Source: Nitrospirae bacterium GWC2_57_13
GTDB taxonomy: Bacteria > Nitrospirota > UBA9217
Length of the DNA stretch: 50,250 bases
Direction of reading: 5' to 3'
Assembly (NCBI GenBank): GCA_001805055.1
Contig: MHDZ01000058.1
Coordinates: 2,215 to 52,464, forward strand
The position numbers were made by a program, and so were the translations under genes. The notes beneath the pieces were generated by a model that made no database searches, was not told the DNA's origin, and saw only the letters and a program-made list of their open reading frames with translations. Shown here in pieces: positions 6,537 to 18,782 of the stretch (position 1 is its first letter; each line of letters begins with the position of its first letter).

Positions 6537-6683
6537 TTTTGGACCAAGGCAACCCCCGTCTCCGTCCCGCATCAATAAAGATGTATGACACGGAGCGGGG
6601 CCCGCGTCCGCTACCATTTAAGAACGGGGCGGGGCGTGTTGCCGTATTTTAAACGTCCCGATCAGATCGGGACTCGCTCCATA
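6537..6683 (-). repeat. Intergenic repeat family X, copy 1 (larE end to purD start)
   Basis: GGACCAAGGCAACCCCCGTCTCCGTCCCGCATCAATAAAGATGTATGACACGGAGCGGGGCCCGCGTCCGCTACCATTTAAGAACGGGGCGGGGCGTGTTGCCGT ... GACTCGCTCCATA. Confidence 0.92.
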
Positions 6684-7483
6684 AGCCCTTCATTCATGCT
6701 CCCTGTCCGGTACCCTTCCAGGTCCAGGCAGACATAGGTATAACCCAGCTTCTTGAGCGCCGAGACGATCCTGCGGGTGCTATCGCCTGTCGATATGCGC
6801 CCGAAATCGCCGGGGCTGATCTCGATCCGCGCCGTGTCTCCGTGATGACGCACGCGGACCTGCCGGAACCCCATTCCCACAAGCACGTCCTCGGCGCTCC
6901 CGATGGCCTTGAGGAGCGCAGGCGTGACCTGCGTACCATAGGGGATCCTTGAGGCGAGACAGGCGAGAGATGGTTTGTCCCACACGGGAAGGTTGAACGA
7001 GCGGGCGAGTTCGCGGACGTCCTGCTTCGTAAACTTCGCCTCGATGAGAGGGCTTCGTACCGAATATTTCGCTGCAGCCCGCCTGCCAGGGCGATGGTCG
7101 GCAAGATCGTCCAGGTTGGATCCGTCGAGGACCTGCGCGAACCCGCGTTCGCGGGCAAGGGAAACGAGCTTACCGAACAGCTCGCTCTTGCAGTAATAAC
7201 AGCGTTCAGGAGTGTTGCTGCAGAAGTCTTCGGATCGCAGTTCGTCGCTCTCGATGACCAGATGCGCCGCACCCACGGACCTGGCGAATTCCCGGGCGTC
7301 AACAAGTTCAGCTGCAGGATAGGTGTCGGAAAGGGCGGTCACGGCCAGGAACTTTCCGCCCAAAGCGTCCACACCCGCCTTCAACAGCAGTGAGCTGTCC
7401 ACGCCGCCGGAAAAGGCTAGCACGGCGCTCTCCATGCCGCGCAATACTGCCGCAAGGCGGTCCCATTTCTCATGCACATTCAT
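6662..7483 (-). CDS. larE: ATP-dependent sacrificial sulfur transferase LarE-like
   Basis: LAFSGGVDSSLLLKAG PP-loop; CYYCKSELF; DGSNLDDLADHRPGRRAAAKYSVRSPL; KPSLACLASRIPYG. Confidence 0.9.
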   Translation of the reverse strand: MNVHEKWDRLAAVLRGMESAVLAFSGGVDSSLLLKAGVDALGGKFLAVTALSDTYPAAELVDAREFARSVGAAHLVIESDELRSEDFCSNTPERCYYCKSELFGKLVSLARERGFAQVLDGSNLDDLADHRPGRRAAAKYSVRSPLIEAKFTKQDVRELARSFNLPVWDKPSLACLASRIPYGTQVTPALLKAIGSAEDVLVGMGFRQVRVRHHGDTARIEISPGDFGRISTGDSTRRIVSALKKLGYTYVCLDLEGYRTGSMNEGLMERVPI

Positions 7484-8791: not shown

Positions 8792-9589
8792 TCACTTCAC
8801 GGTAGACGCCGCGCTGAAGCCCAGCTTGGAGGAGAGCATCTCTCCCGCCTCCTTGAGCTGCCGGATAACGTCTCCCTGCAGGATCTTTGCGTCCGTCAGG
8901 CGGCTCGCAGGCGCCACAATGCCCACGGCGGCGATCACTTTATTCGAGAAATCCCACACCGCCACCGCCGCGCTGCGCACCTCAAGGTCGCATTCTTCGT
9001 CCTCAAAGGCATAGCCCTTTTCCTGCACCGTTTTCACGGCGGCAAGAAGAGCGTCCCGTGTTTTGATGCTCTTCTCCGTCAGCGTCGGAATGTCCTGGTC
9101 CGGGTAGACCCGCTCGATCTCCGCCGGCGTCATCAACGCAAGCTGCGCCTTGCCCACGGCCGTGCAGCAGGCAGGCAGCATGGCGCCGATGCGCGAAATA
9201 GCCCGCACCGTCTTGTCCGTCTCCACGCTGTCCATGAAGATGACCTTGTTCGCCCGGAGCACGGCCACAACTGTTGTCTCGCCCGTGGCAGCCATGAGGC
9301 TTTCGAGAATGGGCCGGGCCTGGCGGCGGCACTCGCGCTGTTCGATAAAGGTGGCGCCGATCTGGAGCGTCTTGGGACCCAGACGATAATTCTCGGTCTC
9401 CTTGTTCTGCTCGATATAGTGGCGATGTTCCAACGTGGCGAGCAGACGGAATACGTTGTTCTTGTGCAGTCCCAGCCGCTTTGACAGCTCGGTCACGCCC
9501 AGTTCGTCCTCCGTTTTGGTGAACGACTCCAGGATGTCCATGGCATGGGAGACCGACTGAATAAGATAATTTGCTTTTTCACGCTTCAT
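8792..9589 (-). CDS. IclR family transcriptional regulator
   Basis: SVSHAMDILESFTKTEDELGVTELSKRLGLHKNNVFRLLATLEHRHYIEQ HTH, then effector domain. Confidence 0.92.
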   Translation of the reverse strand: MKREKANYLIQSVSHAMDILESFTKTEDELGVTELSKRLGLHKNNVFRLLATLEHRHYIEQNKETENYRLGPKTLQIGATFIEQRECRRQARPILESLMAATGETTVVAVLRANKVIFMDSVETDKTVRAISRIGAMLPACCTAVGKAQLALMTPAEIERVYPDQDIPTLTEKSIKTRDALLAAVKTVQEKGYAFEDEECDLEVRSAAVAVWDFSNKVIAAVGIVAPASRLTDAKILQGDVIRQLKEAGEMLSSKLGFSAASTVK

Positions 9590-9763: not shown

Positions 9764-10171
9764 TCAAGGCCGATCGCCTTTTTTGACCGGATACCCCTTC
9801 ATGAGCCACTCAGGCATTCCACCCTGGAACACCATGAGATAGGTATGACCCATTTCGAGCGCCGCGACCGCGGCAGCCTGGCTCAACGTTCAGCCTGCGC
9901 CGCGGCAGTAGAAGATGATCGGCGTTGCCTTGTCCTTCGGCAGCTTGGCCCGATCAACCTTCATCCGATCTGCAGGGATGCTGATCGCACCGGCCACATG
10001 CCCCTCCCGGTATTCCACGGGAAGCCGTGTGTCGATAACCACGACCTTCCGCTTCCCCTCCATCATCGACTTGAGCTGCTCAGCGCTCACTACCGGAAAC
10101 TGTGCCTGCGCTGCCGCCGGGACCAGGAATACTGCCAAATACAAAAGGATTAAATATATTCTTTTTCGCAT
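9764..10171 (-). CDS. Probable selenocysteine-containing exported rhodanese-like protein (in-frame UGA at 9890-9892)
   Basis: N-terminal part ends ...KDKATPIIFYCRGAG at TGA. Reading through gives U-TLSQAAAVAALEMGHTYLMVFQGGMPEWLMKGYPVKKGDRP and stop at 9764-9766, completing a canonical rhodanese domain. Confidence 0.82.
9857..9884 (-). promoter_or_regulatory. Putative bacterial SECIS hairpin just 3' of the UGA codon
   Basis: Minus-strand UGA ACG UU GAGC CAGGCU GCCGC GGUC GCGGC GCUC: apical stem GCCGC/GCGGC with GGUC loop, possible lower stem GAGC/GCUC. Confidence 0.7.
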
Positions 10172-10267
10172 ACGAAGACAAACCTCCGTTTCTAAAACGC
10201 TTGTTTAGTTTTATTATAATAACAATTGTTTGTCAAGAGAAAACAGGTGGGAAATAATTTTCCAAGA

Positions 10268-18564: not shown

Positions 18565-18592
18565 GAAAGGTCTTCATTCTGCATGCATGACA

Positions 18593-18683
18593 GCCTTCCC
18601 TACGCCGGAACTACCCGGATCAGGTTCCAAGGGTCGCCCTCTCTGACAGACGGCTCTCAGCCCCATCCTGCGGGGCTCCCCCA
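18593..18683 (-). promoter_or_regulatory. TPP riboswitch (THI element)
   Basis: Minus strand GGGGGAGCCCC...GGGGCTGAGAG...GGGCGACCCTTGGAACCTGATCCGGGTAGTTCCGGCGTAGGGA matches the THI-box consensus. Confidence 0.97.
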
Positions 18684-18782
18684 GCTTATTTCCATAACTA
18701 CAGTAAAATACAGTACCTCTGGAGTGAAGTCAACGGGTTTCTCTCCCAATCAGCAATCCTGCGGGGACAGAATCGCCCAAAG

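Follow-up and report, generated by a model that had tools for sequence, protein, structure and literature searches.

A predicted rhodanese selenoprotein gene with a conserved SECIS-like hairpin in a Nitrospirota bacterium

The question raised by this locus is whether a rhodanese gene of Nitrospirae bacterium GWC2_57_13 ends at an in-frame UGA or continues through it as a selenoprotein gene. The gene lies on the minus strand of the window, by which we mean the whole stretch of 50,250 nucleotides that was analysed. Its frame starts with an ATG at 10171 and runs to 9764, with one internal in-frame TGA (9892-9890), after which 41 open codons lead to a second TGA (9766-9764). Read through, the frame (9764-10171) specifies an exported single-domain rhodanese of 135 residues with selenocysteine (Sec) predicted at residue 94. 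The term exported refers to an N-terminal segment (MRKRIYLILLYLAVFLVPAAAQA, 10103-10171, minus strand), which by eye looks like a signal peptide and is similarly hydrophobic in the orthologues.

The reading frame across the UGA

The TGA and the 41-codon extension in the same frame, with the peptide as written in the initial annotation, are present in the sequence. The extension had been described as the missing C-terminal half of a rhodanese, and the Pfam profile bears this out: the PF00581 match of the read-through product spans the entire domain (residues 29-124) and scores 67.6 bits, above the gathering score of 22.2 bits, against 47.9 bits for the truncated product, which ends inside the domain. 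The C-terminal part of the domain (9767-9889, minus strand) is translated only beyond the UGA. A single-sequence AlphaFold2 model reached a pLDDT of 57 and was too poor for a fold search.

Orthologues were sought in 148 relatives and then in 396 genomes of the phylum. In about 20 orthologues from related genomes this codon is likewise UGA, within the motif FYCRGxGU[TSG]LS and close variants of it; short UGA orthologues were found in families f1 (that of the host), f5, f11, f21 and f34, and a partial one in f13. Three f1 orthologues (L027, L029 and L030) have TGT (Cys) at this codon. The homologues thus carry either Sec or Cys where the UGA had been noted to fall, at the second-Cys position of small rhodaneses, and in close relatives the UGA is kept together with a conserved downstream frame. 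A scan of named genomes with the single rhodanese protein gave only two distant matches, both without Sec, and searches of plasmids and of viral contigs gave no match to the rhodanese locus.

In the tree the three Cys orthologues form one group inside the Sec clade (support 84/76) and join the UGA-bearing L031 with support 95/92. Since they are nested in this way, a single change from Sec to Cys is the simplest reading of the sequences. The genomes of all three still have tRNA-Sec, and the Cys version works in these relatives, so that neither the fold nor the role of the protein depends on Sec. With a Sec and a Cys version both occurring naturally among close relatives, the gene is well suited to a comparison of what Sec contributes to a rhodanese.

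The codons after the UGA are under purifying selection, and in the rhodanese frame only. Across 24 pairs and 33 post-UGA codons pN lies far under pS, and dN/dS is mostly about 0.1 with a maximum of 0.4, values printed as 0 being without meaning because they stem from saturated dS. The post-UGA frame is free of stops in all 18 sequences, while each of the other two frames is interrupted in 11 of the 18. Termination in general competes with Sec insertion at UGA, and on this ground a cell might make both forms, a 93-residue truncated protein with a function of its own under selenium shortage and the Sec form under ample supply. We regard this as very unlikely, as the rhodanese domain of the truncated product is missing its final part and a conservation pattern requiring the truncated form was not found.

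The downstream hairpin and the decoding machinery

Downstream of the UGA lies a SECIS-like hairpin, UGCCGC-GGUC-GCGGCG (9860-9875, minus strand; loop 9866-9869), at nucleotides 18-33 when the U of UGA is counted as 1. It contains the hairpin GCCGC-GGUC-GCGGC of the initial annotation, with GGUC at nucleotides 24-27 as reported there, and a sixth pair, U-G, lengthens the stem. In the 42-mer of E. coli fdhF the GGUC loop lies at nucleotides 22-25, the position given in the initial annotation; the 42-mer was checked against the fdhF annotation. The stem sequence differs from that of fdhF, and here the apical hairpin alone is conserved. An Rfam scan at the gathering threshold gave no match at the rhodanese locus; elsewhere in the window a TPP riboswitch was found (18579-18692, minus strand; RF00059, 70.4 bits).

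Such a hairpin could be a by-product of Ala-rich coding, with the SECIS located elsewhere or being unconventional. When single sequences were shuffled synonymously, all six pairs arose in about 14% of draws (P ~0.14) in most sequences. This per-sequence test is weak because Ala codons (GCN) give GC-rich palindromes, and only a comparison across genes carries conviction. This comparison was made on an alignment of 19 Sec genes (L088, L092 and L094 were left out), which share ancestry, so that the following counts are non-independent and the figures inflated: 13 of the 19 genes have all six pairs, where 2.1 would be expected, 15 have the inner five, where 5.5 would be expected, and the pairs 18-23/28-33 form in 94.7% of cells against a shuffled mean of 81.0, with 0 of 500 shuffles as high. 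Sliding the partner columns by 1-3 positions lowered the pairing to at most 66.7%, and the apical loop at nucleotides 24-27 starts with GG in 18 of the 19 genes. Because relatedness inflates these statistics, we place the weight on synonymous sites and on the contrast between Sec and Cys genes. Two pairs at third codon positions covary, namely 18:33 (CG, GC, UA) and 21:30 (CG, UA, AU), with permutation P values of 3e-5 and below 1e-5, respectively, kinship being ignored in both. Pair 21:30 is moreover intact in 19/19 Sec genes and broken in 3/3 Cys orthologues (GG, AG, AG). Both observations speak against an origin in Ala coding, which we hold to be distinctly improbable.

A search of the host genome, 3.3 Mb in 105 contigs, showed that selA, selB, selC and selD are all present. 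By profile search, selA (59118-60488; SelA, 599 bits), selB (57047-58933; SelB, 367 bits) and selC (54776-54870; tRNA-Sec with anticodon UCA, 66 bits) lie together on contig C33, and selD (L101) is found on contig C76 (25022-25939; SelD, 364 bits), each over its cut-off. Within the family of the host, 13 of 14 genomes have tRNA-Sec and 11 of 14 have SelB over the cut-off. The host selD frame itself has one in-frame TGA and probably encodes a selenoprotein too. In one family genome (G005) there is a second tRNA-Sec gene with anticodon UCA (L060 1500-1594; G005:C130:47997-48087), with a multi-domain rhodanese of the Cys type about 1.5 kb away.

A conserved read-through frame would by itself also fit insertion of another residue, either by a near-cognate tRNA or because UGA is reassigned. 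This we consider highly improbable in a host with tRNA-Sec, SelA, SelB and SelD, given that orthologues have Cys instead and that the hairpin decays where Cys replaces UGA. UGA is also the ordinary stop in 9 of 12 ORFs checked near the rhodanese, which argues that the code is not reassigned in the host. That the UGA is a real stop in a nonsense-mutated pseudogene agrees with where a standard-code ORF caller ends the gene, but is hardly credible when about 20 genomes from several families share this UGA and the frame beyond it is intact with dN/dS of about 0.1.

Taken together, these comparisons lead us to conclude, with a probability of roughly 0.95, that UGA 9892-9890 is decoded as selenocysteine and that the rhodanese gene is a genuine selenoprotein gene. 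SelB and tRNA-Sec would decode the UGA, directed by the hairpin 18-33 nucleotides downstream. Standard gene calling splits selenoprotein genes in two, and the rhodanese locus is a well-supported case of this.

The neighbouring regulator and its candidate operator

The downstream neighbour of the rhodanese gene encodes an IclR-family regulator (8792-9589, minus strand; PF01614, 133 bits). An IclR-family gene lies next to the rhodanese in 12/12 loci of family f1, with about 70-76% identity, while outside this family the neighbours of the rhodanese are different. In the window the gap between the two genes is about 175 nt and a search of it revealed no terminator-like site, and a putative operon of rhodanese and iclR is therefore likely. 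Upstream of the rhodanese start, a -35-like hexamer TTGACA (10231-10236, minus strand) is invariant in 12/12 loci of the host family, and a palindrome TAAACAnnYGTTTTA (10193-10207, minus strand), a candidate IclR operator, is recognisable in all 12. The site in the window is the sole match to this 15-base pattern in the 50 kb with one mismatch allowed. Seven family genomes each have a single copy of a strict 16-base form, in six of them at the rhodanese gene. In the seventh (G006), where no close rhodanese was found, it lies directly before iclR, which suggests that the palindrome belongs to the IclR-type regulator. In the host family the rhodanese appears to share a promoter with this regulator, which may control both its own gene and the rhodanese.

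Further along, beyond iclR, lies larE (6662-7483, minus strand; TIGR00268, 314 bits), encoding an ATP-dependent sacrificial sulfur transferase, and larE is found in this flank at seven other f1 loci. It could be speculated that rhodanese, iclR and larE form a dedicated IclR-controlled sulfur unit, with the rhodanese as its output: sulfane sulfur outside the cytoplasm would be handled by a selenenylsulfide of the active-site loop, and the regulator would respond to it, but we consider this proposal doubtful. The regulator and the neighbouring genes offer a handle on the function of a rhodanese selenoprotein.

The active-site loop and known rhodanese selenoproteins

The active-site loop reads Cys89-Arg-Gly-Ala-Gly-Sec94, where Cys89 (codon 9905-9907, minus strand) and Sec94 (codon 9890-9892) form a CxxxxU motif. 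All 14 aligned orthologues have Cys at residue 89, and at residue 94 each has either Sec or Cys. Alignment to rhodanese-fold structures puts Cys89 at the catalytic position, and BH2092 (3nhv, 3o3w) has CxxxxC, with its second Cys likewise five residues past the Cys at the catalytic position; the difference is Cys there and Sec here. In the mechanism that seems most plausible to us, though with less than even confidence, Cys89 and Sec94 would alternate between the reduced state and a selenenylsulfide, or sulfane sulfur would move from one to the other. The rhodanese would then act outside the cytoplasm as a transferase or reductase of persulfides and disulfides, with Sec accelerating the resolving step. 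At three f21 loci (L038, L085 and L087) the next same-strand gene downstream encodes, by eye, a TlpA-like exported thioredoxin. This neighbour fits an extracytoplasmic relay, as does the likeness to TsoB described below, though neither proves it.

Three further UGA rhodaneses were observed in the host genome, each with a hairpin 3' of the UGA. L002 (C54:6943-7284) has the motif FYCGGMTUAMS in a 487-residue multi-domain frame. L003 (C87:19065-19430) has YCEUTDE and is a member of NF041203 (156 bits, cut-off 115). L008 (C66:46158-46436) has AYUASGMRS, with Sec at the position of the catalytic Cys, and is fused to a domain weakly matching ferritin-like families.

Rhodanese selenoproteins have been catalogued in five forms (PMC13188914; also PMC9312934), and both reviews give them as predicted proteins without tested function. 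The initial annotation mentioned Sec rhodaneses of some delta-proteobacteria; rhodanese selenoproteins are listed in several forms (PMC13188914 Table 1), and the present host is probably not a delta-proteobacterium. The best NCBIfam match of the protein is TsoB (NF045694, rhodanese/DsbD fusion-like), by way of the rhodanese part only, and with a score of 63 bits, where the cut-off is 805, it is not assigned there. TsoB has the published motif UxxxxU, with two redox residues and four between, while the present protein is a stand-alone rhodanese of 135 residues with CxxxxU and without the DsbD part. The small rhodanese selenoproteins of form 3 (NF041203, CxU) are similar in size class, but the protein is not one of them, since it scores 57 bits, below the cut-off of 115, and has CxxxxU instead of CxU.

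Form 1, the rhodanese-like selenoprotein with PF00581 and UxxS (representative WP_010941598.1; Zhang and Gladyshev 2005; PMC13188914 Table 1), shares with our protein the rhodanese domain and the UxxS motif, here U-T-L-S (GUTLS). By domain and motif the protein fits form 1. As a kind of selenoprotein it is not categorically new, since the form 1 motif has already been published. What is new is the pair of Cys and Sec separated by four residues in the active-site loop, the three further UGA rhodaneses in the same genome and, in the host family, the invariant combination of promoter and palindrome with an adjacent IclR-type regulator.
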